A stretch of DNA of 56,160 bases from Pleurocapsales cyanobacterium LEGE 10410. GTDB lineage: Bacteria > Cyanobacteriota > Cyanobacteriia > Cyanobacteriales > Xenococcaceae. Shown one piece after another: positions 8,168-40,402 of this stretch. The position numbers were made by a program, and so were the translations under genes. The stretch spans positions 1 to 56,160 of the forward strand of contig JADEXJ010000019.1 of NCBI GenBank assembly GCA_015207195.1, given 5' to 3'. Each line of letters starts with the position of its first letter. Positions within the stretch are counted from its first letter, which is position 1. The notes beneath the pieces are model-generated. The model was not told the DNA's origin, searched no databases, and worked only from the letters and a program-made list of their open reading frames with translations.

Positions 8168-8869
8168 TTAATTAACTGCCGAGGCTACTTTGCCACAACG
8201 CTCGTTCGCGGGAACAGCTTCCATAATCTTTTTGGGATCTGGCAGATCGAGGTTATCCATAAAGGTAATAAAGCTCTCACGATTTTTGCCGACAAACCTA
8301 GGATTAAACTGCTTTTCTTCGCCAATGGTGGAAACAGTTTGTCCTTTATAGTCGTGTGCTGGATAAACCAACGTTTCATCGGGTAGAGTAAATAGCTTCT
8401 GGGTAACGCGATCGTACAAAGTTCCCGCATCCCCGCTTTGGAAGTCGGTACGCCCACAACCACGAATAAATAAGGCATCACCAGTTAAAACACGGGTATT
8501 ATTTACTAGATATGCCACGTGACTATCAGTATGTCCGTGAGTTTCGATCGCTTTAATTTCAATCTCTCCCATCTGTAAAATTTCACCATCTTTGATATAG
8601 CGATCTGCACAAGCAGCATGAGCATTTTCTGGCACAATTCCTTTACAGCCAGTCATTTCTCGTAATTTACCAGTACCAGTAATATGATCGGCATGAATAT
8701 GGGTTTCAAGGCAGTAACGCAGACTCAAATCCAATTCTTTGAGTAGTTTTAAATCTCGATCTACCTGTTCCAAAACCGAATCCACTAAAATAGCTTCTTT
8801 CGTTTTAGTGTCCGCAATCAAATAGGTGTAAGTCCAGGTGTCTCGATCGAATAGTTGGCGAAATAACAT
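8168..8869 (-). CDS. Persulfide dioxygenase, ETHE1-like MBL fold
   Basis: 233 residues. All iron-site features of the ETHE1 group are present: THIHADHITG (about 57-66), ETHGHTDSHVAY (about 109-120), LTGDALFIRGCGRTDF (about 128-143) and VYPAHDYKG (about 168-176). The enzyme oxidises glutathione or other low-molecular persulfide to sulfite with oxygen. An AGGAGG site lies just upstream of the ATG. It leads a minus-strand operon with DUF442 and TauE and is divergent from sqr across 245 bases that carry the candidate operators. It uses oxygen, so it would work under micro-oxic rather than strictly anoxic sulfide exposure. Confidence 0.93.
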   Translation of the reverse strand: MLFRQLFDRDTWTYTYLIADTKTKEAILVDSVLEQVDRDLKLLKELDLSLRYCLETHIHADHITGTGKLREMTGCKGIVPENAHAACADRYIKDGEILQMGEIEIKAIETHGHTDSHVAYLVNNTRVLTGDALFIRGCGRTDFQSGDAGTLYDRVTQKLFTLPDETLVYPAHDYKGQTVSTIGEEKQFNPRFVGKNRESFITFMDNLDLPDPKKIMEAVPANERCGKVASAVN

Positions 8870-8975: not shown

Positions 8976-9033
8976 CTGACATAGTTCTCAGCTTACAATC
9001 AAATTATAACGACTTTTTCAAAAAGTAAAACCA

Positions 9034-9051
9034 TATAACTAAATAGTTGTA
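9034..9051. promoter_or_regulatory. Candidate ArsR-type operator upstream of sqr
   Basis: TATAACTAAATAGTTGTA is an 18-base imperfect palindrome (14 of 18 positions pair) 64-81 bases 5' of the sqr start codon. It is the best palindromic version of the island motif and matches the sites at 22444-22460, 31355-31375 and 38365-38383. Confidence 0.6.
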
Positions 9052-9114
9052 CAATTTAAATTATAGATTAAGTTTTCAGATCTAAGAGAAAATATTTTCA
9101 ACGAGGAACTTGTT

Positions 9115-10458
9115 ATGTCTACATCGATACAGCGATCGCCACAGGCTAACCAAAACACCACTTCAATAACCAGCCATTATCAAATCGTCGTCGTGGGTGG
9201 AGGTGCAGCAGGAATTACCACCGCAGCCCAATTACTCAAGCAAAACTCTAAGCTAAAGATAGCGATCGTCGAACCTGCTGAGAAGCATCACTATCAGCCA
9301 GGATGGACATTAGTTGGTGGTGGTGTTGCAACCATAGATAAATTTGTTCGGCAAGAAAAAGACGTAATTCCCAAAGGAGCAAAATGGATTCAGGATTACG
9401 TAACTACTTTTGACCCCGATCGCAATACTATAACTTTAGCTCAAGGTCGAGAGATAAAATACGACTATCTCGTGGTGTGTCCTGGTATCCAAATCGACTG
9501 GCATCTAGTCAAAGGATTAAAAGAAGCCTTGGGTAAGGGTGGGGTAACAAGTAATTACTCTAAAGACTATGCTCCTTATACTTGGTCAACCATCAAAAAC
9601 TTTAAGGGCGGTACGGCGATTTTCACATATCCTAATACTCCGATTAAATGTGGTGGCGCACCGCAAAAAGTAATGTATATGGCAGATGACTATTTTAAAA
9701 GTAAGAGCGGGGTGGGTGTGAATACTAAAGTGATGTTTTGCACTGCGGGGGCGAAAATGTTTAGCGTTCCTGCATACAATGCGACTTTAGAAGGAATAAT
9801 TGCCAAGCGGGAAATTGCTGCTAAGTTCAAGCATAATCTCAAAGAAATCAAAGCCGATACCCAAGAAGCTATTTTCGATGTCACCACTGAAAATGGCGTA
9901 GAAGAAGTTAGTATTCACTACGACATGATTCACGTCACTCCACCGATGAGTTCTCCTGACTTTATCAAACAAAGTCCCTTAGCTAACGATAAAGGTTGGA
10001 TTGATGTCCACAAATACACCCTGCAACACAATCGCTATTCTAATGTATTTGGTTTAGGGGATGCTTCATCATTACCGATCTCAAAAACTGCTGCTGCTGC
10101 TCGCAAACAGACTCCTATAGTTGTGCAGAATTTGCTGGCTCAAATGAACGGTCAACAATTGAACGGTAAATACGACGGTTATACCTGTTGTCCGTTGATT
10201 ACAGGCTATCACTCGGCAATTATGGCAGAATTTGATTACGAGGGCAGTCCCGCCCCGTCTTTTCCCCTCGATCCCACCAAAGAACGCTACTCGATGTTTA
10301 TTGCTAAAGTTTACGCCTTACCCTGGATTTATTGGCATCGAATGCTTAAAGGAGAATCCTTTGAAGCAGATATTTTTCAACCGATTAATAAATTATTTCA
10401 AAGAAACGGTAACAAAAATTCTATCTTAGAAGCAGAAAATAAAAGCAGTACCTGCTAA
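9115..10458 (+). CDS. sqr: Type II sulfide:quinone oxidoreductase
   Basis: 447 residues. Rossmann FAD site VVVGGGAAGITTAAQLL (about 26-42). Cys179 in PIKCGGAPQK and Cys358/Cys359 in YTCCPLITGY fit the two catalytic cysteines of type II SQR (the mitochondrial SQOR group), and the protein lacks the third Cys of type I. LGDASSLPISKTAAAARKQ (about 314-332) is the C-terminal FAD motif and the tail is amphipathic, suiting a monotopic membrane enzyme. It oxidises sulfide to persulfide and reduces plastoquinone. A GAGG precedes the ATG. It is divergent from the persulfide dioxygenase operon, whose product would consume its persulfide, with shared operator-like sequence between them. Confidence 0.95.
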   Translation: MSTSIQRSPQANQNTTSITSHYQIVVVGGGAAGITTAAQLLKQNSKLKIAIVEPAEKHHYQPGWTLVGGGVATIDKFVRQEKDVIPKGAKWIQDYVTTFDPDRNTITLAQGREIKYDYLVVCPGIQIDWHLVKGLKEALGKGGVTSNYSKDYAPYTWSTIKNFKGGTAIFTYPNTPIKCGGAPQKVMYMADDYFKSKSGVGVNTKVMFCTAGAKMFSVPAYNATLEGIIAKREIAAKFKHNLKEIKADTQEAIFDVTTENGVEEVSIHYDMIHVTPPMSSPDFIKQSPLANDKGWIDVHKYTLQHNRYSNVFGLGDASSLPISKTAAAARKQTPIVVQNLLAQMNGQQLNGKYDGYTCCPLITGYHSAIMAEFDYEGSPAPSFPLDPTKERYSMFIAKVYALPWIYWHRMLKGESFEADIFQPINKLFQRNGNKNSILEAENKSSTC

Positions 10459-12656: not shown

Positions 12657-13273
12657 CTATAAAGAGATTAATTCTGGTGTCTCAAACATTGCCGTGCTGA
12701 GATATCTTTCACCACCACTGGCTTGAATTGCCACAATTAGGCGATCGCGGTACTGCGATCGTCTAGCCACTTCTATAGCTCCAGCAACCACCGCACCAGT
12801 AGAAATACCACTGAGAATCCCTTCTTCTCGTGCTAAACGCCTGCCGATATCATAAGCTTGCTCCTCCGTAACCTGAATAATTTCATCAATTAAATCCACT
12901 CGTAACACATCGGGAATGAAGCCAGCCCCTATCCCCTGGAGATCGTGAACTCCCGAAGGTTTACCGCTTAGTACCGCACTTTTAACTGGTTCAATCGCCA
13001 CAATTTTTAGAGATGGCTTTTGTTGTTTGAGGTAGCGACCAGCACCTGTCAGAGTACCACCAGTCCCGACTCCCACCACCAAAACATCAATTTGTCCTTC
13101 TGTATCTGACCAAATTTCTGGACCTGTAGTTTCGTAGTGGATCTTAGGATTTGCTGGGTTACTAAATTGTTGGGGAAAAAAAGCCCCTGGAATACTTGCA
13201 ATAAGTTCATTAGCACGGGCGATTGCCCCTGGCATATCTAATTCAGCAGCAGTAGTAATTATTTCAGCCCCAT
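12657..13273 (-). pseudogene. cysK: cysK, 3' fragment (cysteine synthase C-terminal part)
   Basis: Encodes the C-terminal two thirds of O-acetylserine sulfhydrylase, from GAEIITTAAELDMPGAIA to the end. Conserved are the PLP-phosphate loop GVGTGGTLTGAGRY and the C-terminal substrate block GIGAGFIPDVL followed by EEGILSGISTGA. The fragment is cut at its 5' side by the 5.95-kb insertion that begins at 13274. Its other part is at 19226-19433: removing the insertion and one copy of CAGCCCCAT restores an open frame reading [16 protein letters not shown]. The catalytic N-terminus is absent here, so it cannot make active enzyme. Positions 12555-12656 show nothing notable. Confidence 0.93.
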
Positions 13274-19974: not shown

Positions 19975-20036
19975 AGATGAAATAAAAGGATAAATTTGCT
20001 ATTTTAGTTCTCTGGCATAAAGAGAGAACTAAGTTC

Positions 20037-21152
20037 ATGAATCAGATCTTACCCCAAGCGGAAGAATTACTCTTAACCTTGAAACAACTAATGCCCACTA
20101 TTTATCAGCAAGAAACTCTAGAATCTCTTCTAGGCTTATTTCTTTCTGGAAAAGGTAATGGTGTTCCTCATCATTGTCCGACTAAATCTGAAAGTGCCAT
20201 TAGTCGGTTTCTCAATTATTATAATTGGTCTACTCGTTCCGTAATTCGGACAATTCGTGCTTATATTTTAAATTTTATTCTTTCTCAACCAATACAAGGT
20301 AGAAAACCAATTCTTCAAGTAATTCTCGACCTTACTACTTTGGAGAAAGTTGGCAAATTCCCTCATCTTAATAATCTTGTAAGAGTTTACAATCATAAAA
20401 AAGGCTTGCATATTGTTGTCATGTACCTAGTCATAGGTAACTGGCGATTTCCGTGGAGCTTTCGTATTTATCGGGGAAAAGGTACAGCTTCTCCTTCTCA
20501 ATTAGCTCAAAAGTTACTCAATAATTTGCCATCAGTTTTAACGAAAGCATTTCAAATTTATGTTTTAGGTGATACTGCCTTTGGCACAATTAAACTAATT
20601 AATAAAATTCGACATCAAAATAGTTTTCAGGCTCTTGTTGGTATTCCTAGAACTAGAAAACTACAAGATGGACGTAAAGTCTCTGAAGTTAGAACTCGCG
20701 GACAGCAAGTTTATTTAAATGGGTTAAGTATTCCTGTATTTTTGTCCTGGGTGTGGTTAAAGCGAGATGGCAAGAGAGTTCAACGTTTTATCATCTCAAC
20801 TAAGCAAATGAAAGGTAAAACTATTGCTCGGTGGGGTAAACGAAGGTGGCAAATTGAAGGGTTTTTCAAAACTGTTAAACATTGCTTTAGTCTTCATCGT
20901 TTTGGACAAAAGACTTTACTTGGAGTTTATCGCTGGTTAATTCTTTCTTTTGTTTCCTATTTGTTATCATACTGGGTCTATTTACATTTAGGAAATTATG
21001 ATAACTTAGACTGGTTCTCCTCAGCACAACAAGCATTAATTTTACTGCTACCTCATATTTTACTTCTCTCTCTTTTGAATCAGTTAGAGGCAGTTAGACC
21101 CTGGTTAAATGAACTTGGTTTTGATTTTTCTCTGATGAGGTGCAAGATCTGA
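20037..21152 (+). CDS. DDE transposase, IS4 superfamily (IS701-like)
   Basis: 371 residues. Plausible catalytic residues are the Asp in VILDLTTLEKVGKF (about 94-107), the Asp in YVLGDTAFGTIKL (about 175-187) and the Glu in RWGKRRWQIEGFFKTVKH (about 263-280). The last codons lie in the right inverted repeat, as often in such elements. The assignment to IS701 rather than another IS4-superfamily group is a guess from general layout. Apparently intact. Confidence 0.85.
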   Translation: MNQILPQAEELLLTLKQLMPTIYQQETLESLLGLFLSGKGNGVPHHCPTKSESAISRFLNYYNWSTRSVIRTIRAYILNFILSQPIQGRKPILQVILDLTTLEKVGKFPHLNNLVRVYNHKKGLHIVVMYLVIGNWRFPWSFRIYRGKGTASPSQLAQKLLNNLPSVLTKAFQIYVLGDTAFGTIKLINKIRHQNSFQALVGIPRTRKLQDGRKVSEVRTRGQQVYLNGLSIPVFLSWVWLKRDGKRVQRFIISTKQMKGKTIARWGKRRWQIEGFFKTVKHCFSLHRFGQKTLLGVYRWLILSFVSYLLSYWVYLHLGNYDNLDWFSSAQQALILLLPHILLLSLLNQLEAVRPWLNELGFDFSLMRCKI

Positions 21153-21155
21153 GTT

Positions 21156-22182
21156 CTAATGTAGGTTTGGTCAAAGGAGATTTAATCGCACCTAATTCCA
21201 CGGCAATATTATGAGCCACTGCTACGCCCATAGCTTCGGTCATCTCCCCACTTTTGGGCAAGCCAATCGGAACGGGGGTTTTATCTGGCTGTTCTAAATG
21301 CACTCCCACTCCCAAAGCATAAATAGAAGGAAAGTCTGGATGTCTTTGCGAAGGTAGTACGGGGATAAATCCTTTTTCGTTAGTTAATCCAGGCACTTTC
21401 CGTAAAAACTCAACTCCTCTAAAAGAGGGGAGAATCATCGAATATTTAAAAGGAAGTTGGCAGCCGTCAGCTAAAGTAATGTTCTGTGGATCTATGTGAG
21501 TAATTCTGGCATTGGCGATCGCCTTGATTGCCCGTTCTGCCATCAGTTCTTCCGTCAATTTTTGGGCATTTTTAATCCCTCCTACCCCTGTATGACCGAT
21601 ATAAGGTTCTGGGGTGACGTAGGTAATGTCTACTTTGTCTCTAATCCCTTGACGACGCAATTCCCAATCTGCCATCAAGACGAACTCATAAGCAGGACCA
21701 AAACATCCCGTACCTGGCATTGCCCCCACTACTAAATCTCCTGGGTTTTCTAGAAATTCTAACCACGCATCTCTCGCTTGCAGGGCATGGTCGGGAGTAC
21801 AGACAGACTGGGTATATCCTCCATGAGGTCCTAAACCTGGTATTTCGTCAAAGGCTAAAGATGCTCCTGTGGCGATCGCCAGATAATCGTATTTAACTGT
21901 TTGGTCTTGCTCGACGGTAATTTCCTTTTTTTCGCGATCGAGGGCGGTTACTTTACCCGCTACCCATTCAATTCTCTGTCTTCGTGCCAACTGGCACAAA
22001 TCTAATTGAATATGGTTTAAAGGATTTAGATTTAACGCGACTCTGATTAATCCTGGGATGAAAGTAAATTGAGGTTTGTCAGAAATTAGGGTGACGGTAT
22101 GTTCTTTGGGCAAATAATGCCTTAATTCATAGGCTGTGGGTAATCCCCCCAGTCCTCCTCCAATTACTACAACATTAGCCAT
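21156..22182 (-). pseudogene. Second SQR-like FAD oxidoreductase, 3' truncated by IS
   Basis: The open frame runs to 21094, but codons beyond 21156 belong to the insertion sequence. About 343 native residues remain of a family that is usually 390-430. FAD site VVVIGGGLGGLPTAYEL (about 3-19), IATGAS (about 106-111), Cys residues in YTQSVCTPDHA and MPGTGCFGPAYEF, and the late FAD block IYALGVGVHLEQPDKTPVPIG are present. The Cys-Phe-Gly-Pro-Ala-Tyr-Glu block is typical of SQR types other than I and II. The membrane-binding C-terminus is gone, so activity is probably impaired. It is divergent from the DUF302-petC-psbA cluster with operator-like sites between. Confidence 0.8.
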
Positions 22183-22279
22183 TGGTATGTTCCTCTTGCT
22201 TAAATTTGGTTATTAGTCATTCGCATCGATAATTATCTATCTCAATCTAAATCTGATTTGTTTATTTATATGACTAATA

Positions 22280-22294
22280 AGTTATATAGTAATG
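22280..22294. promoter_or_regulatory. Candidate ArsR-type site near the SQR-like gene
   Basis: AGTTATATAGTAATG, 98-112 bases 5' of the minus-strand SQR-like gene. It shares AGTTATATAG with 31355-31375. It may serve the leftward promoter of this divergent region. Confidence 0.45.
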
Positions 22295-22426: not shown

Positions 22427-22460
22427 AAATAGTTGTATAAATTACTAAATAGTTATATGT
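22427..22460. promoter_or_regulatory. Tandem candidate ArsR-type operators upstream of DUF302-petC-psbA
   Basis: Two overlapping versions of the island motif: AAAATAGTTGTATAAATT at 22427 and ACTAAATAGTTATATGT at 22444. The second shares ACTAAATAGTT with the sqr operator at 9034-9051. They lie 62-95 bases 5' of the DUF302 start, the same distance as at sqr. Confidence 0.6.
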
Positions 22461-22521: not shown

Positions 22522-22932
22522 ATGAATCACTTCAGTAAAGTATTAGACACATCATTTGAAGACGCGATCGCACAAGTAACCAACGCCCTGAGAGAAGAAG
22601 GTATGGGCATTTTGACCGAAATTGATGTCCAAGCTGCTTTTAAAAAGAAACTCGATGTAGATTATCGCCAATATAAAATTCTCGGTGCTTGCCATCCTTT
22701 AATTGCCTATCATATGCTCCAAACCGATGATAAAGCGGGGGTTTTCTATCCTTGTAATGTCGTCGTTCAAGAACATGAAGATGGCAGAGTGGAGGTATCG
22801 GCGGTCGATCCTCTGATGATGTTTCTAACTATACACAGTCCTAAAGCGAAAGAAATTGCCCTCGATGCCAGTCAAATGATGCAAAGGGTAATCGAACATT
22901 TGGAATCGCCCCAATTGGCTGCTGCGAATTAA
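22522..22932 (+). CDS. DUF302 protein
   Basis: 136 residues, the usual size. The family core is visible as DAIAQVTNALREEGMGILTEIDV (by position, about 14-36) and YKILGACHPLIAYHMLQ (about 52-68), with PCNVVVQEHEDG following. DUF302 proteins are small alpha/beta domains of unknown biochemistry that recur beside sulfur-oxidation genes such as SQR and rhodaneses. A GAGG precedes the ATG. It is the first gene of the plus-strand run that continues with DUF2892, petC and psbA, and it carries the operator-like sites. Confidence 0.88.
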   Translation: MNHFSKVLDTSFEDAIAQVTNALREEGMGILTEIDVQAAFKKKLDVDYRQYKILGACHPLIAYHMLQTDDKAGVFYPCNVVVQEHEDGRVEVSAVDPLMMFLTIHSPKAKEIALDASQMMQRVIEHLESPQLAAAN

Positions 22933-23041: not shown

Positions 23042-23251
23042 ATGTTTAACAATGTAGGAACAGTCGATCGCATCATTCGTTTAATTTTAGCAAGTGTCTT
23101 AGCTTATTTCGGGTTATTAGTTTATAGCGGTTCGGCTTTAGGTATTGGTTTAACTATTGCGGGTGCTGTCATGGCTATCAGTGCCTTAGCTGCTTCTTGT
23201 ATGCTCTATGGCTTATTTGGCATTAATACTCGCAACCCTCAACAAAATTAG
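23042..23251 (+). CDS. DUF2892 small membrane protein (YgaP-tail-like)
   Basis: 69 residues: NVGTVDRIIRLILA at the N-terminus, two membrane segments (about 12-30 and 32-55) and the terminal block LYGLFGINT. This is the same module as the membrane part of the rhodanese YgaP, here without a rhodanese domain. AAGGAG lies upstream. It probably anchors or partners one of the rhodaneses of the island; that is an inference. The 109-base gap after DUF302 contains only the ribosome site and A/T-rich sequence. Confidence 0.85.
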   Translation: MFNNVGTVDRIIRLILASVLAYFGLLVYSGSALGIGLTIAGAVMAISALAASCMLYGLFGINTRNPQQN

Positions 23252-23288: not shown

Positions 23289-23822
23289 ATGGAAAACAGT
23301 CTCCCAATCGAAAGTCCGTCTATGTCGCGACGGCAGTTACTTAACTTTCTCACTGGCGCAGCGGTTGCTGTTACTGCTGGTGCAGCACTATATCCTGTAG
23401 GTAAATATTTCATTCCACCTTCGGACGTTGGCGAAGATGGCTCGATCCTAGCTAAAGATATTAACGGTAATGTCATTCCTGCTAGGCAAATTTTAGCCGA
23501 ACCGCCTGGAACTAGAGCTTTAATTGCGGGACTAGCTGGCGAACCCACCTATCTCACCGTCAAAGAAGACGGAACAATCCATCCTTGGGGAATTACAGAT
23601 AACTGTACCCATTTGGGCTGTACTTTTCCCTGGAATCCTAACGACGCTCAGTTTCAATGTCCCTGTCATGGTTCTCGCTACGACGATGAAGGGAGAGTAG
23701 TAAGAGGTCCTGCGCCACTGCCTTTACAGCTTGCCCACGTAAATGTTGTCGGAGACTATATTCGTATTTCTCCCTGGACAGAAACCGACCCCCGTACAGG
23801 ACAAAAACCCTGGTGGGTTTAA
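23289..23822 (+). CDS. petC: Rieske iron-sulfur protein of cytochrome b6f (accessory PetC)
   Basis: 177 residues. A cytosolic tail with SRRQLLNFL precedes one membrane helix (about 18-40), the normal PetC topology. The 2Fe-2S ligands are in CTHLGC (about 107-112) and CPCHGS (about 126-131), and the Pro loop [11 protein letters not shown] follows. The C-terminus [15 protein letters not shown] is typical of cyanobacterial PetC. Cyanobacteria usually carry several petC genes. Its position between a sulfide-responsive promoter and psbA suggests a b6f variant used when SQR feeds the quinone pool. AAGGAGG precedes the ATG, and 31 bases separate it from psbA. Confidence 0.93.
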
Positions 23823-23853: not shown

Positions 23854-24897
23854 ATGACTACTATAATTCAACGTCGTCCCGAAATAGACCTGCCCCCAAT
23901 CTGGTCAAGGTTCTCTCGCTGGATTACCAGCACCAATAACCGCATCTATCTCGGCTGGTTTAGCGTGCTGATGATTCCTACTCTGCTAGTTGCGACTATC
24001 GTTTTTGCGATCGCCTTTGTAAATGCGCCTCCTGTAGATTTAGATGGTATCCGTGAGCCAGTAATCGGTTCACTCATGGGAGGTAACAATATTGCTACTG
24101 CTGCCGTTGTTCCTACCTCCGCTGCCATTGGTTTACATTTTTACCCCTTGTGGTCGGCTAATTCTGTAGCAGAATGGCTTTACAATGGTGGTCCTTATCA
24201 GCTAATTATCTTGCACTTTCTAATCGGTATTTGGGCTTATCTAGGTAGACTTTGGGAGTTAAGCTACCGTTTAGGAATGCGTCCCTGGATAGCCGTAGCA
24301 TATTCCGCTCCAGTAGCAGCAGCAACAGCCGTGTTACTAGTTTATCCCATCGGTCAGGGTAGCTTTTCGGCAGGAATGCCCCTCGGCATCACTGGTACTT
24401 TTAACTTTATGTTGGCGTTACAAGCAGACCATAATGTCTTAATGCATCCATTCCATATGTTAGGAGTAGCGGGGGTTTTTGGTGGCGCACTTTTGAGTTC
24501 GATCCACGGTTCTTTAGTAACTTCCAGCTTGATTCGAGAAACTACAGAAGTAGAATCTGCCAATGAAGGTTATAAATTTGGTCAAGAAGAAGCAACCTAC
24601 AATTTATTAGCTAGTCATGTCGGCTACTTGGGTCGATTGCTCATTCCTTCCTTGGGTTTTCGCAACAGTCGTTCAGTACATTTCTTCTTAGCAGCTTTAC
24701 CTACGATTGGTATTTGGTTTGCTGCGCTAGGAATTAGCACTATGGCTTTCAACCTTAATGGATTTAACTTCAACCAGTCTATTCTCGATAGTAGCGGACG
24801 AGTAATCCGAACTGATGCAGATCTACTTAACCGTGCCAACTTAGGAATTGAAGCGATGAATGCTCCCAATACTCACAATTTTCCTAAGTTGTTATAG
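23854..24897 (+). CDS. psbA: Divergent photosystem II D1 protein lacking Mn-cluster ligands
   Basis: 347 residues from an ATG with CAGGAG upstream. In standard D1 numbering (residue here minus 3 up to His252, minus 4 after) it keeps TyrZ (Tyr164), His190 (His193), His198 (His201), the iron ligands His215 and His272, Asp61 and His337. It lacks Asp170 (Ala173), His332 (Asn336), Glu333 (Ala337), Asp342 (Leu346) and the Ala344 carboxylate, since it ends at Leu347 with no processing extension. Glu189 is Asp. Gln130 next to pheophytin is Leu, Ser264 of the QB site is Gly, and one residue is inserted after His252. It therefore should not assemble a normal oxygen-evolving cluster. The profile recalls rogue/sentinel D1 and ChlF; which clade is unknown. 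Confidence 0.95.
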
Positions 24898-25061: not shown

Positions 25062-25475
25062 ATGAAAATTGCCGTTGCCAGTCAGAGAAAGTCTACTGTA
25101 ACAAGTCATACAGGGAAATGCCAAAACTTCTGGATTTATGAAGTTAACTCTAAAGAAATTCTCGGTAAAGAACTGCTAAAACTACCCAAAGAAAAAACTT
25201 TCCACAATAGTTCTCCCCATGACCCCCATCCTTTAGATGATGTTCGAGTTTTAATTTCAGGAGGAATAGCAAAGGGATTGATGCGTCGCTTGGAGAAACG
25301 GGGTATCGAAGGAGTTGTTACTTTAGCCAGCGATCCAGATTTAGCGGTTATTTCCTACTTGGAAAATTCCTTAGTCCAAGAAATATTGCAACCAAAACCT
25401 CCATCAAGGGAACGCAGACATCTTCAGGGACACAAACATCAGCATCGTTACAGACACGCTTACAACTGTAGTTAA
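25062..25475 (+). CDS. NifX/NafY-type (dinitrogenase cofactor biosynthesis) domain protein
   Basis: 137 residues. MKIAVAS at the start, SHTGKCQNFWIYEV (about 15-28), LISGGIAKGLMRRLEKRGI (about 63-81) and the late strand-helix VISYLENSL are the fold of the PF02579 family. The last 30 residues are His-rich (GHKHQHRYRHAY), which may bind metal. Family members carry iron-sulfur or iron-molybdenum cofactors, but stand-alone copies occur in organisms without nitrogenase. No nif gene is in the window. Linked to a rhodanese 31 bases downstream, it could handle iron or sulfide clusters. Function inferred only at fold level. Confidence 0.8.
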   Translation: MKIAVASQRKSTVTSHTGKCQNFWIYEVNSKEILGKELLKLPKEKTFHNSSPHDPHPLDDVRVLISGGIAKGLMRRLEKRGIEGVVTLASDPDLAVISYLENSLVQEILQPKPPSRERRHLQGHKHQHRYRHAYNCS

Positions 25476-25506: not shown

Positions 25507-25884
25507 ATGACATCGATCACAAATTCCCCACCACAAGTTATCGATCTTTCACCAGAAGAATTTACCCAGTTACCCCAACCACCTCGGTTAATTGATGTTC
25601 GCAGCAAGTTTGAGTATGGAATGTTTCATGCTCCTGATGCAATTAATCTTAGTCTGCCTCGCATTTTGATGGGGAGTAATTCCTGGCTGCGTCGTTATGT
25701 TTTACCTCAATGGTTTCGAGAGCTATCGAAAGATGAACCTATTGCTCTAATTTGCTTAACGGCTCATCGTAGTCCCATGGCTGCCGAACAGCTTATTAAA
25801 GCTGGATTTACCAAGGTTTATAACATTATAGGAGGCATGATGGAATGGCAAAAATCAGGACTTCCTACTTGCAAAGGAAAATAA
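25507..25884 (+). CDS. Cytosolic rhodanese
   Basis: 125 residues, a single rhodanese domain with no signal peptide. LIDVRSKFEYGMFHAPDAINL (by position, about 29-49) is the entry strand-loop, and the active-site loop is CLTAHRS with Cys near residue 78. GGMMEWQKSGLP closes the domain. It would shuttle sulfane sulfur between donors such as SQR-derived persulfide and acceptors. AAAGGAG lies before the ATG. Part of the plus-strand run downstream of psbA. Confidence 0.9.
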   Translation: MTSITNSPPQVIDLSPEEFTQLPQPPRLIDVRSKFEYGMFHAPDAINLSLPRILMGSNSWLRRYVLPQWFRELSKDEPIALICLTAHRSPMAAEQLIKAGFTKVYNIIGGMMEWQKSGLPTCKGK

Positions 25885-26009
25885 GCTCATAACTTCCTCA
25901 AATTAAACAGAGATTATTGGTTTAATTACTGGCATTTACTGGAAATTGCCGCGATCGACAATTTTCACAAATCAATTAAGTACAAATGAATTAAGTGGAG
26001 GAAAAGAAA

Positions 26010-26480
26010 ATGAACTTTGAGATTCCTGAAACAATCAAAACTTGGTCACAATTTTTCCATCCCATCTTAATGTGGATTATATTCGCCACTGCCATCTATG
26101 CCCTATATCTAGGTTGGCAGATTCGCCGTACCCGCAATGCTCCCAAAGAAATCCGCCAAGAACTTGTCAAACAAAATTTTAGCAATAGACACCATCGAGT
26201 TGGTTCAATTTTATTGGCTTTAATGGTACTAGGGGCTTTAGGCGGAATGGCAGTGACTTACATTAACAACGGTAAATTAATAGTTGGACCTCACTTATTA
26301 GCAGGATTGGGCATGGTAGGACTTATTGCTACATCTGCTTCTCTTGTTCCATATATGCAAAAGGGAAATGACTTAGCTCGTTACAGTCATATTTCCCTCA
26401 ACGCAATACTTTTAGCATTATTTAGCTGGCAAGCAATAACAGGGGTACAGATCGTACAGAAGATTATCAGTAATTTGTAA
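26010..26480 (+). CDS. DUF4079 membrane protein
   Basis: 156 residues from an ATG directly after GTGGAGGAAAAGAAA, where the GGAGG serves as ribosome site. Four membrane segments are apparent (about 18-38, 65-85, 93-115, 128-150) with His in FHPILMW, NRHHRVGS, GPHLLAGLG and YSHISLNA. The family is common in cyanobacteria, and the conserved His residues inside membrane segments resemble a cytochrome b561-like layout, so heme binding and quinol or ferric reduction are conceivable. No function is established as far as I know. Same strand and spacing as its neighbours in the island. Confidence 0.8.
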   Translation: MNFEIPETIKTWSQFFHPILMWIIFATAIYALYLGWQIRRTRNAPKEIRQELVKQNFSNRHHRVGSILLALMVLGALGGMAVTYINNGKLIVGPHLLAGLGMVGLIATSASLVPYMQKGNDLARYSHISLNAILLALFSWQAITGVQIVQKIISNL

Positions 26481-26611: not shown

Positions 26612-27598
26612 ATGTGGAAAATATTATCCGCCCTGAAAAAAAATCTAGTTTGGTCAGTTCCCGCATTTATGATTGCAGGGATTATCTTCGGCGCGTTGGC
26701 TGATGCTAGTTTTCTCAAAGCTGCGATCGTTCCCCTGACTTTTTTGATGGTTTATCCGATGATGATTAACCTTCAGATCGCTAAAGTCCTGGCTGGGGGC
26801 GATTTTAAACTACAGGCTATTACTCAACTAATTAACTTTGCCGTCGTACCATTTTTCGCCTTTGGCATTGGTAAACTATTTTTTAGCGATCGCCCGTTAG
26901 TTTTATTGGGATTATTACTCACTTCCCTACTTCCCACCAGTGGCATGACGATATCATGGACTGGTTTCGCCAGAGGAAATCTCAATGCTGCGATTAAGAT
27001 GACGGTGATTGGCTTAATTGCGGGTTCTTTGGCTGCGCCTCTTTATGCTGAATGGCTCATGGGTACGGCAGTAGAAATTCCTTTAGTGGATGTCTTTAAA
27101 CAAATCGTAATTATTGTCTTTCTACCGATGCTGTTGGGATTTGTGACCAAAAAAATTCTGATTGCCAGCGTCGGCGAAAATAAATATAACAAAAGTCTCA
27201 AGCAGAAGTTCCCTGTTTTCTCTACTATTGGCGTGTTGGGCATTGTGTTTGTGGCAATGGCATTAAAGGCTAAATCAATTGTGAGTAACCCCCTAGAAGT
27301 TCTCTCTTTCTTTGTACCTTTATTAATTATTTACGGCTTCAATTTTGTTTTAAGTACCATAATCGGCAAAGCCTTATTCAATCGAGGAGATGCGATCGCT
27401 TTAGTATACGGTACGGTGATGCGAAATCTCTCTATTGCCCTGGCGATCGCCATTACCGTCTTTGGTTCAGAACAAGGTTCGGAAATCGCCTTAATCATTG
27501 CTATGGGCTACATCATCCAGGTTCAATCCGCAGCTTGGTATGTCAAGTTAACCGACAGAATATTTGGCATACCTGCGATCGAAGCACAACTTGAATAA
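26612..27598 (+). CDS. Bile acid:sodium symporter / ACR3-like transporter
   Basis: 328 residues with about ten hydrophobic segments. IVPLTFLMVYPMMINLQ (about 39-55), LLTSLLPTSGMTISWTG (about 101-117) and a late segment IALVYGTVMRNLSIALAIAI (about 264-283) place it in the BART superfamily that includes arsenite exporters ACR3. Substrate cannot be read from sequence; the conserved Cys of ACR3 is not apparent, so arsenite specificity is unlikely to be standard. In Synechocystis, sulfide and arsenic genes are co-regulated by an ArsR protein, which makes a metalloid or sulfur anion plausible. The gap before it has no clear ribosome site. Confidence 0.75.
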   Translation: MWKILSALKKNLVWSVPAFMIAGIIFGALADASFLKAAIVPLTFLMVYPMMINLQIAKVLAGGDFKLQAITQLINFAVVPFFAFGIGKLFFSDRPLVLLGLLLTSLLPTSGMTISWTGFARGNLNAAIKMTVIGLIAGSLAAPLYAEWLMGTAVEIPLVDVFKQIVIIVFLPMLLGFVTKKILIASVGENKYNKSLKQKFPVFSTIGVLGIVFVAMALKAKSIVSNPLEVLSFFVPLLIIYGFNFVLSTIIGKALFNRGDAIALVYGTVMRNLSIALAIAITVFGSEQGSEIALIIAMGYIIQVQSAAWYVKLTDRIFGIPAIEAQLE

Positions 27599-28916: not shown

Positions 28917-29285
28917 ATGGAAACTACAGTTAAAGATGGAGTTTTTATTCACATCAGCCGAGGAGAAGATGACCCCCATCGAGTCTTAATGGCACTGACT
29001 TTAGCAGAAAAGATGTCTGAAGATAAAGATGTTTTAGTTTTCTTTGATATCAAAGGTGTCGAAGTTCCGCTTAAAAATGCCGATGCGATCGCCTTTAAGG
29101 AATTTGAGACAGCACAAACACTTTTACCCAAGCTAATCGATAAAGGTGTTCATGTCTGTGTATGTCCTATGTGCTTAAAAGCTGCCAATTATCAGCCCGA
29201 AGATTTGATCGAAGGAGTACAAATAGCTGAAAAAGAAGCTTTCTTTAATTTTACCGAAGGGCGCATTTTGTCTTTAGACTATTAA
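28917..29285 (+). CDS. DsrE-family sulfur-relay protein
   Basis: 122 residues. The family end block CVCPMCLKAANYQPEDLI (about 82-99) places two Cys residues (CPMC) at the usual sulfur-carrier position, and EKEAFFNFTEGRILSLDY closes the fold. The N-terminal strand GVFIHISRGEDDPHRVLMAL is typical. DsrE-type proteins hold persulfide on the conserved Cys and pass it to partners. An AGGAG lies before the ATG. Partner candidates are the rhodaneses at 25507 and 30810 and the disulfide reductase that follows. Confidence 0.88.
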   Translation: METTVKDGVFIHISRGEDDPHRVLMALTLAEKMSEDKDVLVFFDIKGVEVPLKNADAIAFKEFETAQTLLPKLIDKGVHVCVCPMCLKAANYQPEDLIEGVQIAEKEAFFNFTEGRILSLDY

Positions 29286-30809: not shown

Positions 30810-31298
30810 ATGAAAAAACTCTTGGCTACCTTCTGGTTGGGAATCTGGCTCTATTTTGGTACTTTTTTAGTAGCCAGCCCTACTTTTGCTGCTGCTAATA
30901 TTACTCAAACCACAGACAAAGTTGAGACATTAAGCGATCGCAATCTAACAAGGGTACAGCAGTTCCTAACTTCAATTCCTCGTGAGTATTACACTGTCAG
31001 ACAGATAAATAAAGTTAAAGCTCTTGGTAAAGAACAGCAAGCATTATTGATAGATGTTCGCGAACCCAAAGAATATGCTTCTGGTCATATTCCAGGAGCA
31101 GTTAATCTTCCCTTGCGTAGTCTAACCGATAATCTCGACCAAATTCCTAAAAATCGTCCTACGATCCTTTACTGCTCTACAGGCTACCGAACCGCAATGG
31201 GAGTTATGGCTCTGCAAATGCTCGGATACGATAATGTTCGGGGTTTTCCTCCCAGTATCGAAGGTTGGAAAGCAGCAGGAGAACAACTGGAACTATAG
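30810..31298 (+). CDS. Exported rhodanese
   Basis: 162 residues. A signal peptide covers about 1-28 (LLATFWLGIWLYFGTFLVAS then PTFAAA), so the domain acts outside the cytoplasmic membrane, in the periplasm or thylakoid lumen. The rhodanese core is LLIDVREPKEYASGHIPGAV by position 79-98, with the active loop CSTGYRT (Cys near 123) and GFPPSIEGWKAAG at the end. It probably receives sulfane sulfur produced by SQR or imported through the YeeE pair that follows. Last gene of the run before a new operator. Confidence 0.9.
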   Translation: MKKLLATFWLGIWLYFGTFLVASPTFAAANITQTTDKVETLSDRNLTRVQQFLTSIPREYYTVRQINKVKALGKEQQALLIDVREPKEYASGHIPGAVNLPLRSLTDNLDQIPKNRPTILYCSTGYRTAMGVMALQMLGYDNVRGFPPSIEGWKAAGEQLEL

Positions 31299-31354
31299 CA
31301 GTATTAAGGTTAGTGCCTTCATGGATAGGTCATGTTAAATAATAGCTGCTAAAA

Positions 31355-31375
31355 TATAGTTGTATAGTTATATAG
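31355..31375. promoter_or_regulatory. Candidate ArsR-type operator upstream of the YeeE pair
   Basis: Two overlapping half motifs, TATAGTTGTATAG and TAGTTATATAG, 41-61 bases 5' of the first YeeE gene. They match AGTTGTA at 9045-9051 and AGTTATATAG at 22280-22290. Confidence 0.55.
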
Positions 31376-31415: not shown

Positions 31416-31832
31416 ATGGCTGAAGTTAATTGGATTGCAGCATTGGCTGGAGGGATGCTAATTGGTCTGAGTGCTACTATTCTGCTGGCTTTTGATGGTC
31501 GGATTGCTGGTATTAGTGGCATTGTCAACGGTGCAATGAAATTTAAGTCAGAAGAGAGTTGGCGGTGGCTGTTTATTGTGGGGATGTTAGGAGGCGGTTT
31601 GATTTACGAATATGTATTTACCTCAGAACCTACCCCTGTATCTGACTTTGTACCTGGAGCGATGATTGTTGGCGGTTTATTGGTCGGTTTTGGCACAAGG
31701 ATGGGAAATGGTTGTACTAGCGGTCATGGTGTCTGTGGCTTGGGTAGATTATCATTCCGCTCGTTGACGGCGGTAATTACCTTTATGATTACTGCCATTG
31801 TCACGGTATTTGTTACTCATCATGTGATTTAG
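31416..31832 (+). CDS. YeeE/YedE-family transporter, N-terminal half (PmpA-like)
   Basis: 138 residues, four membrane segments. The conserved Cys motif of the sulfur transporters is GTRMGNGCTSGHGVCGLGRLS (by position, about 91-111) with Cys residues suited to relay of a sulfur atom. The other conserved block GRIAGISGIV is near residue 28. Paired half-size YeeE proteins move thiosulfate or persulfide sulfur across the membrane. Its partner starts 67 bases downstream. Direction of transport is not deducible. Confidence 0.9.
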   Translation: MAEVNWIAALAGGMLIGLSATILLAFDGRIAGISGIVNGAMKFKSEESWRWLFIVGMLGGGLIYEYVFTSEPTPVSDFVPGAMIVGGLLVGFGTRMGNGCTSGHGVCGLGRLSFRSLTAVITFMITAIVTVFVTHHVI

Positions 31833-31899
31833 GCAAGATACTTCATATCGTCAGGGAATAAGAAAGTCGTCATTTGTTATTAGTCATTGGTTATAGAAA

Positions 31900-32355
31900 A
31901 TGAAACAGAAATTAATTGCTCTTTTATCTGGACTGTTATTTGGTTTTGGCTTAAGCCTTTCCCAAATGATCGATCGCGATCGCGTATTGGGATTTTTAGA
32001 TGTTTCAGGAGACTGGGACCCAACACTATTGTTCGTATTAGGCGGGGCTGTTGGTGTTACCGTGATTGCTTTTCGTTTTGTGCTGCGTTTGCCTCAGCCA
32101 ATTTTTGCCAGTAAATTTTATTTACCTACTAGAAAAGATATCGACCTCCCCCTGATTCTCGGTGCTGCGATATTCGGTATCGGTTGGGGTATTGCAGGCT
32201 ACTGTCCTGGTCCTGGTATTACCGCTTTGGTCTTGGGAATACCGAATCCAGTTTTGTTTATTATGGCGTTTATTCTCGGTTCACTTGCCTATCAATGGTA
32301 TGTAGGGTTGTCAGCAAAGAGTAATTCTGTCAACCAGCAGGAAGTAAAACAATAG
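31900..32355 (+). CDS. YeeE/YedE-family transporter, C-terminal half (DUF6691/PmpB-like)
   Basis: 151 residues, four membrane segments. LLFGFGLSLSQMIDRDRVLGFLDV by position 12-35 and GIGWGIAGYCPGPGITALVLG by position 95-115 are the signature blocks; the Cys in GYCPGP is the expected relay residue. It forms the second half of the transporter with the preceding gene. An overlapping frame at 31887 is a shadow. The pair is a normal accompaniment to SQR and rhodanese genes. Confidence 0.9.
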   Translation: MKQKLIALLSGLLFGFGLSLSQMIDRDRVLGFLDVSGDWDPTLLFVLGGAVGVTVIAFRFVLRLPQPIFASKFYLPTRKDIDLPLILGAAIFGIGWGIAGYCPGPGITALVLGIPNPVLFIMAFILGSLAYQWYVGLSAKSNSVNQQEVKQ

Positions 32356-32421
32356 CAGTAACTATTGAGTTTGCTGTTGTGAAAAATAGTAGTTGTTTAG
32401 TGAAACCGCGATCGCTTGATT

Positions 32422-33279
32422 ATGTATAGCCTGAACAAGCTGAAAATCACCGTTTTAGTAGAAAATACCGCAGGAGGAAAGGGTTTGCTCGGAGAACACG
32501 GGCTTTCCTTTCTGATTGAGGCAGATGACCGACGAATTATGTTTGATACGGGGCAGGGATTGGCGTTAAATCATAATGCACAAACATTAGGCATTTCTCT
32601 GGAAAATCTAGATGCCATCGTCCTCAGCCACGGACATTACGATCATGCAGGAGGACTACCAACCATACTAGAGCATTGTGCTAACACTGACTTATTTCTG
32701 CATCCCCAAGCGATTTGACCTAAGTATAGTTCTAGAGGCAATATTGGTTCTCCCATCGACAATGTAAAAACTTTAGCCAGTCACTGCCGTCGGTTAGTTT
32801 GGACTGAGACTCCCACTGAGATTATGCCAGGAGTATCTATAACGGGGACAATTCCGCGACATCATCCTTTAGAAAATACAGGAGGAGCATTTTGGCATAA
32901 TTCCCAACATACAGAAGTCGATCGCCTGTTAGACGACCAAGCTTTGTATCTACAAGTACCTGAAGGTCTAGTGGTCATCTTGGGCTGCGCTCATGCAGGA
33001 GTAATCAATACTTTCGATTATATTGCCCAGGTAGCAAATAAGAACAAGTTTTATGCCGTGATTGGTGGTATGCACTTGTTACGAGCAAACCAGGAACGTT
33101 TACAAGCTACTGTTGAAAGTCTTGCCAAATATGACGTTCAAATAGTCGGGGCGAATCATTGTACGGGAATGAAAGCGATGACTTTTTTGTGGCATCAATT
33201 GGGCGATCGCTGTTTGGATTGTCGTGTCGGTACTGAATTAGAGTTTGGTAATGTTGAAGTGATATTAAATAAAATTTAG
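32422..33279 (+). pseudogene. MBL-fold hydrolase (MJ0301/DHPS-like) with in-frame TGA
   Basis: Single reading frame of 286 codons broken by TGA at 32716-32718. The N-terminal part has the metal motif LSHGHYDHAGGLP (about 77-89) and the later part ILGCAHAGVINT and VGANHCTGMKAM. The stop falls in HPQAI-stop-PKYSSRGNIGSP, where relatives usually have a basic residue, so a CGA to TGA transition is the simplest cause. No selenocysteine context is expected at that site. Both halves keep good codon structure, which points to a recent loss or a sequencing error. Confidence 0.8.
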
Positions 33280-37963: not shown

Positions 37964-38338
37964 CTATTTGGTAGAAGAACCAAAGGCACTCAATCGCTTA
38001 AATTTCTCAGCTTTTTGCTGCATCCGTTCGTAAAGGCGATCGCAAACCAGCTCGCACAGTTCAAAAATCATCGGATCGTCAATCTTATAATAGACAGCGA
38101 CACCTTCGGGCTGACGAGATAAAATCTCGGCTTCAGTTAGCATCTTGAGATGCTTTGATAAATTAGCCTGTCCCAAACCAGTAGCCTCACCGATCTCACT
38201 CACATTCATCGCTCCTTCTCGCAAGCAACTTAAAATCTGCAACCGACTGATTTCAGAAAGCATTTTAAAATAATCGGCAACTGGAGCCAAATATTCAGGC
38301 GATTTAGATGTCTTATCACTAGGAGCAGTTTTGGGCAT
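37964..38338 (-). CDS. ArsR-family repressor with Cys residues (SqrR/BigR/SuoR-like candidate)
   Basis: 124 residues from the internal ATG; the TTG two codons earlier is possible. Winged-helix blocks are FKMLSEISRLQILSCLREGAM by position 24-44, IGEATGLGQANLSKHLKML (about 49-67, recognition helix) and SRQPEGVAVYYKI. Cys38 lies in the second helix and Cys95 and Cys99 in the last helix. This layout resembles the persulfide sensors SqrR/BigR, which use one Cys in each place, and differs from the ELCVCD metal site of classical ArsR. The same AT-rich palindrome sits at its own promoter and at sulfide genes across the island. Likely the sulfide-responsive repressor of this region; inferred. Confidence 0.82.
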   Translation of the reverse strand: MPKTAPSDKTSKSPEYLAPVADYFKMLSEISRLQILSCLREGAMNVSEIGEATGLGQANLSKHLKMLTEAEILSRQPEGVAVYYKIDDPMIFELCELVCDRLYERMQQKAEKFKRLSAFGSSTK

Positions 38339-38364
38339 GGGCAAACTTATGTTGGTTGATACTT

Positions 38365-38383
38365 TATATAACTATATAGTATT
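38365..38383. promoter_or_regulatory. Candidate operator of the arsR gene (autoregulation)
   Basis: TATATAACTATATAGTATT, 27-45 bases 5' of the arsR ATG, so it would overlap the core promoter. TATAACTATAT is shared with 4778-4788 and, as its complement, AGTTATAT with 22280 and 31355. Position fits negative autoregulation. Confidence 0.6.
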
Positions 38384-38452
38384 CTAACAAAAAAGTAAAA
38401 TAGTGAAGACCATGGCAAAACTAGTGACAGTCTGGTTTTCATTTGAGAGCAA

Positions 38453-39463
38453 TTATTCTTCGCTGAGACTAAGAACTTTGCCACGGAAAACAATATAGTT
38501 ATAAATGTTGTATGCCAGCATGATGGGTATGAGAAAACCAATGAAAATAATCATGAACACCAGAGAGCTTGGACTAGCAGCAGCCTGATAAATTGTGATT
38601 TGAGTGGGAATAATATAGGGAAAGACAACTAATCCCAATCCCAGAAAAGATATAAAAAATAGCAGCAGAGTCCACACAAATGGTCGTCTTTCTTGTTCCA
38701 AATAAAGGCTTCTCAATAATAAAAATATCAACAAAGCCCCTAGCAATGGTATCAAAGCAAAGATGTAGACTAGTGGTTCATCAAAAAGTCTGGTTCTAGC
38801 ACTTTCAGAAAAGATGGGAGTGGTAATGGTTAGATATACTGCACCGATAAAAGTAGTAACCGCCGAGATTCTAGCCGTCCAATAATGGGTAGTTTGCAGT
38901 TCTCCCTCGGTTTTTAAGATTAGGTAAGTAGAGCCAATCAGGACGTAGCCTTGAATTAGGGTCAGAGCTACCAAAAACGACCGCCAGCTAAACCAGTCCC
39001 AATTCCCACCTATAAATTGTCCAGCGTTATCTACAGTAATTCCTTGTAAGATCGCACCTAGAGCAAATCCCTGACCTAAAGCAGCCAGAAAGCTACCGCC
39101 ACCAAAAGCAATATTCCAAAATATTTTAGTCGTGGCATTTTCGCGAAATTCAAAAGCGACAGCGCGAAAGATTAAGCCAAAGATCATTACTGTAACGGGA
39201 ATATATAAAGCCTGGAGAATTGTGGCATAAGCCAAAGGAAACGCTCCAAATAAAGCTCCCCCCATCAAAACCAACCAAGTTTCATTAGCATCCCAAACAT
39301 TGCCCAGACTGGTCATTAACATTCCTCTTCGTTCTTCATTGGAAGCGGTGATTGAGAGAATACCTACTCCTAAATCGAATCCATCTAGCATTACATAGAG
39401 AAACAAGAATAGTGCTAAAACGGCAAACCAAACTTGGGGTAAAAAATATTGCAGAGATTCCAT
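38453..39463 (-). CDS. cydB: Cytochrome bd-type quinol oxidase subunit II
   Basis: 336 residues with about eight or nine membrane segments. FLYVMLDGFDLGVGIL (about 18-33) and NEERRGMLMTSLGNVWDANETWLVLMGG (by position, about 39-66) are CydB hallmark blocks. A TTG nine bases further upstream is an alternative start. It follows cydA by 12 bases. Cytochrome bd oxidases are far less sensitive to sulfide than heme-copper oxidases, which explains their place here. With cydA truncated, the oxidase encoded here is probably lost unless another subunit I exists. Confidence 0.93.
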   Translation of the reverse strand: MESLQYFLPQVWFAVLALFLFLYVMLDGFDLGVGILSITASNEERRGMLMTSLGNVWDANETWLVLMGGALFGAFPLAYATILQALYIPVTVMIFGLIFRAVAFEFRENATTKIFWNIAFGGGSFLAALGQGFALGAILQGITVDNAGQFIGGNWDWFSWRSFLVALTLIQGYVLIGSTYLILKTEGELQTTHYWTARISAVTTFIGAVYLTITTPIFSESARTRLFDEPLVYIFALIPLLGALLIFLLLRSLYLEQERRPFVWTLLLFFISFLGLGLVVFPYIIPTQITIYQAAASPSSLVFMIIFIGFLIPIMLAYNIYNYIVFRGKVLSLSEE

Positions 39464-39475
39464 AATTTCCAATAA

Positions 39476-40402
39476 TTACTGTTGAGCTTCGACAGGACGA
39501 CTATTGGGAAGATGTTCGGCTGGTGTAGTATCCAATTCCTCAGTAACTTCCTCTCCTGGTACGGGCAAATCAAAATTAGGTCCAGTACGAATAATACGGC
39601 TAGCAAAATACAGAGCAAAAACAAACAAAATACTGTAGACGATCGCAAAAATGCTCAAAGAAGTCAAAACATTACTAGCAGGTATCTGAGAAGCTGCATC
39701 CACTGTGCGAATTTCTCCATACACCGTCCAAGGTTGTCTACCTACACAACGGACTATCCAGCCCGATTCCACCGCAATATAGCCTAATGGTGCAGCGAAC
39801 ATCCAAGCTCTAAGTAACCAACGTTGTTGAGCGATATTTTCGGCAGCCAATTTACCCCTTAACCACTGCAAAACTGTTAGTGCCATCAAACCCGCTAAGA
39901 TAAACCCGATCGCAATCATAATCCTGAAAGCATAGTAAATTAGACCAATTTGATGGGGTCGGTCTTCTGGAGCGTATTCTTTTAAACCCAAAACTGGTTC
40001 GGATAGCTGGGGTTTTATTTCCAGAATGTAGCTCAACAGCCCAGGGATAGAAATTTCCCAATCATTTTGCTCGGCATTGTCGTTGGGTAGAGCGATCGCA
40101 CTCCAGGAGGGAGATTCTCCTGCGGGAATAGTCTCCCACTGAGCTTCCATAGCAGCTAATTTTGTCGGTTGATAGTGATACACTTGCTCACCACTCAAAT
40201 GTCCGATATATAGCTGCAAAGGAGTAACGGCGATCGCGATCGCCAAAACGATTTTGAAAGACAGGGCAAAAAAATCTGAATGACGTTTACGAAGAATATA
40301 CCAAGCACTAATTCCACCAATTACAAACAAAGAAGTCTCCAAGGTGGCAAAAAACATATGGAGAACACTGTTGAGCATAAAAGGATTAAAGATTGCCTGA
40401 AA
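39476..40402 (-). pseudogene. cydA: Cytochrome bd-type quinol oxidase subunit I, 5' truncated
   Basis: The 300-residue open frame from an internal Met corresponds to the C-terminal two thirds of CydA (normally about 450-520). Upstream of that Met the frame continues as QAIFNPFMLNSVLHMFFATLETS, a normal internal CydA block, up to the IS1634 boundary at 40403. GWIVRCVGRQPWTVYGEIRT (about 207-226) is the late conserved block; the heme b595/d ligand region of the N-terminus is missing. The lost part is not on the other side of the insertion element, so a deletion accompanied the event. Confidence 0.9.

Follow-up and report, generated by a model that had tools for sequence, protein, structure and literature searches.

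A D1 variant without manganese ligands, its sulfide gene neighbourhood and a candidate shared operator in a Pleurocapsales cyanobacterium

The 56,160 bp stretch of Pleurocapsales cyanobacterium LEGE 10410 DNA analysed here (contig JADEXJ010000019.1, hereafter the window) carries a psbA gene whose D1 product is without the ligand set of the Mn4CaO5 cluster of photosystem II (PSII), and this gene stands among sulfide genes, several of which follow copies of one palindrome, ATATNACTNNNNAGTNATAT. We consider it probable, with moderate confidence, that this is a rogue or sentinel-type (group 2) D1 that has been built into a sulfide-responsive regulon and would give a Mn-free, non-oxygenic PSII under sulfide. 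Membership of the D1 and of a second Rieske protein (PetC2) in such a regulon is supported by the operator-like palindrome, which is common to several sulfide genes and a putative regulator gene. The placing of the psbA operon and the sulfide genes behind one likely operator suggests a cell that stops making oxygen in the presence of sulfide, and switching between oxygenic and sulfide-based photosynthesis in cyanobacteria bears on Proterozoic oxygen levels.

The psbA variant and its place among D1 proteins

The psbA reading frame (Table 1) runs uninterrupted for 347 codons to a TAG stop, and its product scores 610.3 bits against the NCBIfam psbA equivalog, whose cut-off is 596.05. Numbered by alignment to a canonical D1 (L063), it has Ala170, Asp189, Asn332, Ala333 and Leu342 at the Mn-ligand positions and no residue 344; the ligand set of a standard D1 (groups 3/4) is thus incomplete, and the loss is mainly C-terminal, as in group 2. 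The Glu189 to Asp change is conservative, the carboxylate being retained. Also present are His118, Tyr161 (TyrZ), His190, His195, His198, His215, His272 and His337, which include the TyrZ-His190 pair and the acceptor-side histidines of group 2. A sequence-only reading of this DNA had named all of these changes and had claimed that TyrZ, His190, His198 and the iron/quinone-region histidines were kept, and in canonical numbering every one of these residues is as it had said. It had further singled out Gln130 to Leu and Ser264 to Gly; both residues are there (Leu130 and Gly264), but neither is special, since they are frequent among rogue D1s (32/81 and 22/81, respectively). His332 is present in the three closest family orthologues (87–91% identical to the window D1).

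With no carboxylate at 170, no His332, Glu333 or Asp342 and no C-terminal carboxylate at 344, a Mn cluster could not assemble and no O2 would be made. The protein ends at the CtpA cut position and so would need no maturation; a 2025 paper (PMC12096807) states in one passage that the CtpA site is apparently lost in atypical D1s. The gene itself is not decaying: Nei-Gojobori (NG86) dN/dS values against three family orthologues are 0.051/0.588, 0.063/0.893 and 0.074/1.038 (~0.07–0.09), which indicates purifying selection. Among the 81 rogue D1s compared (below), Tyr161, His190 and His272 are invariant (81/81), His198 differs in six and His215 in one. The position of His198, a P680 ligand, is occupied by Ser in one rogue subclade (L055, L056, L105, L110 and L111).

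The sequence-only reading had left the placement of the protein to a D1 phylogeny. In a tree of 95 rows rooted on ChlF (an earlier version had 75 rows) and built without G0 references, the window D1 is placed among the group 2 proteins, within the rogue clade (79 rows, support 100/99) and outside groups 3/4 and group 1; the clade includes the Crocosphaera watsonii WH 8501 variant (L182), which we take to be a published sentinel D1, and the canonical D1 clade (100/99) and the ChlF-like paralogue of the same genome are separate from it. The backbone of this tree is without resolution, and a single origin of the sulfide-linked D1s (below) is neither shown nor excluded by it. Within the rogue clade the window D1 belongs to an eight-row subclade (98/94) in which 8/8 proteins end before residue 344 and 7/8 have a non-acidic residue 170, which only 8/81 rogue D1s have. 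Group 2 D1s are described with E170 or D170 in the relevant part of a 2016 review (PMC4773611), a reported range rather than a definition; we therefore call the window D1 a variant of group 2, and its subclade departs further than described group 2 does. It resembles the group 2 rogue or sentinel D1s (Murray 2012; Wegener 2015; Cardona 2015, as presented in passages of PMC4773611 and PMC11304991) in its missing Mn ligands, its kept TyrZ and acceptor side and its clade, and differs in Ala170, in having neither residue 344 nor a C-terminal extension, and in the sulfide gene set and second Rieske gene around it.

Loss of Mn ligands is also common to ChlF (super-rogue D1, group 1), and the genome has a FaRLiP-type (far-red) cluster, in which an FRL-type D1, ChlF and a D2-like gene lie together on contig C28 (L057). 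We nevertheless give hardly any credence to the idea that the window gene encodes a chlorophyll-modifying D1 paralogue like ChlF, and rejected this identity on its separate branch and absent motif residues. Among the eight ChlF-typical residues listed in the pertinent part of PMC10535343 it has one, L117; the QD of positions 127–128 and Q252 are L127, G128 and H252 in the window D1, and neither Q127 nor D128 occurs in any of the 81 rogue D1s. The genome's own ChlF paralogue forms a separate long branch (58–60% identical) and sits in the FaRLiP-type cluster, where the window gene does not. This one genome holds, besides ChlF and the FRL-type D1, a canonical-type D1 (interrupted by a contig end) and two rogue D1s in different contexts, the second of which (L044, contig C258, 9318–10397) lies between acetyl-CoA synthetase/phosphotransacetylase (acs/pta) and Hsp20 genes.

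The sulfide gene set around psbA

The psbA gene closes a tight run, DUF302-YgaP-petC2-psbA, and sulfur-related genes flank this run on both sides (Table 1). The petC2 product is 49% identical to that of the genome's other petC, which adjoins petA on contig C374. TauE and rhodanese-domain genes also lie beside the type II sulfide:quinone reductase (SQR) gene, which is ~12 kb upstream of the type I SQR/psbA region.

Table 1. Coordinates of the features of the window
Feature	Position	Strand	Remarks
Operator-like site	4777		no gene matched
Metallo-beta-lactamase-fold protein, read as persulfide dioxygenase	8168..8869	-	assigned from fold only; putative function
Operator-like site, 2 mismatches	9033..9052	.	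between dioxygenase-like and type II SQR genes
Intact type II SQR (mitochondrial SQOR-like)	9115..10458	+	closest PDB 6oi5, E 6.5e-122
Insertion sequence splitting SQR gene	19988..21154	+	DDE transposase 20037-21152
Type I-like SQR, IS-truncated at ~residue 341 of ~440	21094..22182	-	CFAEYG Cys region and C-terminus lost
Operator candidate, exact copy of palindrome	22268..22287	.	between sqr and DUF302
Second operator copy, 1 mismatch	22439..22458	.	64 bp before DUF302
DUF302 protein	22522..22932	+	first of DUF302-YgaP-petC-psbA run
Small YgaP-like membrane protein (PF11127)	23042..23251	+	between DUF302 and petC
Second Rieske protein (PetC2-like)	23289..23822	+	31 nt ahead of psbA
psbA variant, group 2-like (rogue) D1	23854..24897	+	347 aa, without Mn4CaO5 ligand set; last residue is 343
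Nitro_FeMo-Co (NifX-like) domain protein	25062..25475	+	
Rhodanese	25507..25884	+	also near psbA in many linked loci
DUF4079 membrane protein	25995..26480	+	
SBF/ACR3-like transporter	26612..27598	+	
DsrE-like protein	28917..29285	+	
Second rhodanese	30810..31298	+	
Operator-like site, 2 mismatches	31354..31373	.	43 bp before YeeE-like gene
Two half YeeE/YedE-like sulfur transport genes (PF04143, PF20398)	31416..32355	+	
ArsR-family regulator, candidate repressor	37964..38344	-	Cys40, Cys97 and Cys101 counted by eye
Operator-like site, 2 mismatches	38366..38385	.	22 bp before arsR; autoregulation candidate

The sulfide gene set that the sequence-only reading had seen around psbA is thus real, with the qualification that its type I SQR gene is truncated by an insertion sequence (IS). 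The remaining reading frame is 362 aa long and diverges after ~residue 341 from the 443-aa orthologue of a family relative (G631), which has an intact syntenic cluster with an arsR gene beyond SQR; the window protein is therefore not a full-length type I SQR and is without the CFAEYG motif, presumably the C-terminal catalytic Cys region. No second copy of a type I SQR gene was found in the 392-contig assembly, in which the IS has 14 more matches, one nearly full length and the rest partial. Given this truncation, the adjacent SQR is unlikely to supply electrons as had been proposed; the type II SQR could be their source.

The truncated SQR, the several transposases of the window and the failure to recognise beyond the IS the arsR that follows sqr in G631 might mean that the island is decaying and that the genes left after the IS cut SQR, D1 included, are relics. 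We think this quite unlikely, in view of pairwise dN/dS values under 0.1, obtained for D1 with three orthologues, for petC and DUF4079 with two apiece and for the transporter with a single one, which leave room for a very recent relaxation, and of the intact operator copies. Some other genes of the cluster have higher values, ~0.2.

Several more genes of the window appear incomplete. In a cydA/cydB pair (39476–40378 and 38453–39472), beside which we noted by eye a transposase-like frame (40422–42035), cydB looks complete, and cydA is missing its first part, as it matches positions 176–418 only of a 418-position profile. A cysteine-synthase-like frame (12657–13235, by eye) is just 192 aa long, is flanked by two transposase-like frames and looks truncated, and a metallo-hydrolase-like gene (32416–33279) is seemingly split into two frames, the second of which has no Pfam match and has relatives 62–63% identical in L078 and L190.

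Linkage of rogue psbA genes to sulfide genes

Linkage was counted in a set of 161 distinct D1 genes with flanks, 81 rogue and 78 canonical, with the genome's own ChlF and D2-like genes kept apart; 11 genes with identical DNA, and 12 pieces that were short or split, had been set aside before the count, L042 (E333, D342) was classed as rogue by rule, and the 78 canonical genes include the FRL-type D1 of the genome analysed here. An SQR and/or petC gene of the window types was found within 10.5 kb of 20/81 rogue and 1/78 canonical D1 genes (Fisher p 6.5e-6, kinship not corrected for), in a sample chosen by search rank, not at random, with some flanks clipped at contig ends and with two SQR queries, that of the window and one from Pseudanabaena, which would not pick up SQRs of other types beside rogue D1s. 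Both SQR and petC are near 17 of the rogue genes, and the sole linked canonical gene lies in a cluster that also holds a rogue D1 (L082). Linked loci occur in the window's family, in Pseudanabaena by name (UBA1465 and a MAG), in Leptolyngbya sp. Heron Island J and in other families. Most rogue genes (61/81) are without this linkage, among the 20 rogue loci examined first, by rank, only one is linked, and in the window's own family two relatives without a type I SQR keep the orthologous D1, one with petC (G641) and one with D1 alone (G642); the linkage of rogue D1 to sulfide genes is therefore recurrent, but not obligatory. Neither of the two findings that the sequence-only reading had named as refuting it occurred: the window D1 is outside the ChlF branch and has no QD motif, and some of its relatives do lie by sulfide genes, though most do not.

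The linked D1s carry a non-acidic residue 189 (Lys, Arg, Gln or Ala) in 14/20 cases against 14/61 in the unlinked ones; such a change should accommodate an anion more readily than Mn2+ and could fit a light-driven PSII in which sulfide or persulfide reduces TyrZ through the emptied Mn pocket, making PSII a sulfide:plastoquinone photo-oxidoreductase. The invariance of Tyr161, His190 and His272 agrees with such use of another donor, and Grim & Dick (PMC5061849) cite Murray 2012 for the proposal of donors other than water. We regard this as very unlikely, however: the window D1 keeps Asp189, and the residue 189 association is lost after a control for relatedness (just 3 independent pairs lie on branches with support, and the sign test gives a median p of 1), so we rejected it as a mark of sulfide-linked D1s and do not claim it. 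Very doubtful indeed is the fuller proposal that PSII has been repurposed under sulfide for direct light-driven oxidation of sulfide or persulfide into plastoquinone, a second route beside SQR within one ArsR regulon that has its own Rieske protein, with Glu189 changed to Lys, Arg or Gln by TyrZ in sister clades.

Some rogue D1 genes of sulfide clusters (L081, L086, L087, L089 and L104) appear split or frame-shifted, by draft error or real decay.

A palindrome ahead of sulfide genes and a candidate ArsR repressor

The palindrome is in the stretch that separates sqr from the DUF302-YgaP-petC2-psbA run, and was derived from one intergenic word found ahead of sqr in the window and in G631 and ahead of petC in a Pseudanabaena-type genome. 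An ArsR-like motif, ATTC-N-GAAT, occurred in 4 scanned stretches only and was dropped. Scanning for the consensus with up to two mismatches, with 10 dinucleotide shuffles as control and with the short or split D1 pieces beside petC and/or SQR (L081, L086, L087 and L089) kept in, gave 44 sites in 20 of the 24 linked loci, the three founding loci included (shuffled mean 2.0, maximum 4), and none in the other four. Unlinked rogue loci are at background, with seven sites in 6/61 loci (shuffled mean 6.6), and canonical loci have five sites in 5/71 (shuffled mean 5.3). Leaving out the three founding loci and the other loci of family f28, there are 16 sites in 10/14 loci, a count taken from the scan listing without a shuffle of its own and including some close relatives. 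Thirty-seven of the 44 sites are no more than 450 bp before a matched gene (SQR, petC, DUF302, DUF4079, dioxygenase-like, arsR, type II SQR, YeeE or D1); the other seven have no matched gene, and one of them is inside a gene.

Two exact copies occur in the LEGE 10410 genome, that of the window and one on contig C232 (L249); the latter stands ~81 bp ahead of a further dioxygenase-like gene, on the downstream side of hydrogenase-like genes (read as hox). Three of the six places in this genome with at most one mismatch lack a neighbour recognisable as a sulfur gene. Twenty-one other genomes, chosen as previously met (11 with and 10 without a linked D1), gave eight exact copies in seven genomes, and 14 had none, five of these among the 11 with a linked D1. 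Six of the copies, in family f28, precede petC (five of them with DUF4079 on the other side), one in G109 is between sqr and DUF302, 49 kb from the rogue D1, and one in G612 is before an arsR whose product is 58% identical to the window ArsR. All 10 exact copies in the own and the chosen genomes thus precede sqr/DUF302, petC, dioxygenase-like or arsR genes, and the reversed pattern gave no exact copy. The G641 locus has no site at up to two mismatches, and with the retention of D1 without a type I SQR in G641 and G642 this indicates that D1 outlives the sulfide link. At the lone orthologous D1 of G642 (L158, 8999 and 9438) there is a weak operator-like site (two mismatches) ~420 bp upstream.

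Such sharing of a palindrome by the psbA operon, sqr and other sulfide genes suggests common control by an ArsR-type repressor. SqrR and BigR are ArsR-type repressors that respond to sulfide or persulfide, and the window ArsR resembles them in its fold, in Cys residues near 40 and at 97/101 and in the operator-like site before its own gene; it differs in that its best PDB matches are ArsR and SmtB, the match to 3pqj, a "biofilm growth-associated repressor" (BigR), being weaker (E 6.5e-6). Its sensing role is putative.

The same sites bear on the alternative of a sentinel D1 that answers to anoxia or N2 fixation, silencing PSII in the dark or at low O2 to protect nitrogenase, with the sulfide genes sharing its habitat and not its signal. 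Group 2 D1s are linked in passages of PMC11304991 and PMC4773611 to night or dark and N2-fixing conditions, nifH is above the cut-off in this genome, and the many unlinked rogue loci and the orthologues that persist without a type I SQR would fit. We judge this unlikely rather than remote; the shared palindrome precedes SQR, persulfide-dioxygenase-like and arsR genes and is at background at unlinked rogue loci, and the genome's other rogue D1 already occupies a fermentation-like neighbourhood.

Under the favoured reading, a D1 in a sulfide-responsive regulon, the ArsR-type repressor, probably sensing persulfide through its cysteines, would leave the operator when sulfide enters; SQR would then pass sulfide electrons to plastoquinone (PQ), PetC2 would take the place of the usual Rieske protein or work beside it, and PSII would take up the variant D1. 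That PSII would have no Mn cluster and make no O2 but would keep its charge-separation core (TyrZ-His190, His198 and the iron/quinone histidines). The likely gain would be a non-oxygenic placeholder PSII, sparing the cell O2 and the poisoning of the Mn site by sulfide, while electrons ran from SQR through PQ and b6f to PSI.

Linkage of rogue psbA to sqr is not itself new, as it was reported by Grim & Dick 2016 (PMC5061849). Passages of that paper describe 15 genomes with group 2/3 psbA close to sqr, with 14 psbA five or fewer genes from sqr and the proximity not resolved for Geitlerinema PCC 9228, hint at linked regulation and call the linkage "intriguing but currently untested"; they contradict the view of the sequence-only reading that D1s of this kind are not generally described as members of sulfide regulons. 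Like those loci, the window has an atypical psbA a few genes away from sqr; it differs in the palindrome that its psbA operon has in common with sqr, dioxygenase-like and arsR genes, in the petC paralogue as partner and in its broken type I SQR; "petC" and "Rieske" do not occur in the main text of PMC5061849. In Thermostichales, according to parts of PMC11304991, sqr lies beside petC2, which is the likeness to the window (a Rieske paralogue beside a type I sqr), and group 2 psbA is mentioned separately in the same MAGs and is not placed in that pair. Searches of an open-licence literature library turned up no account of this palindrome or of a single operator in front of psbA, petC2 and sqr, and the shared operator seems to be a new regulatory lead. 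The palindrome ahead of the psbA operon, sqr, persulfide-dioxygenase-like and arsR genes offers a concrete and cheap test of the published idea that connects modified PSII with sulfide, and the window D1 would provide a natural PSII without a Mn site for study of the donor side.

A petC-D1 pair 80% and 79% identical to that of the window was also seen in a Cyanobacteria MAG (L177, 4295–6023 and 12141), with an operator site ahead of petC and a type II SQR gene ~7 kb downstream.
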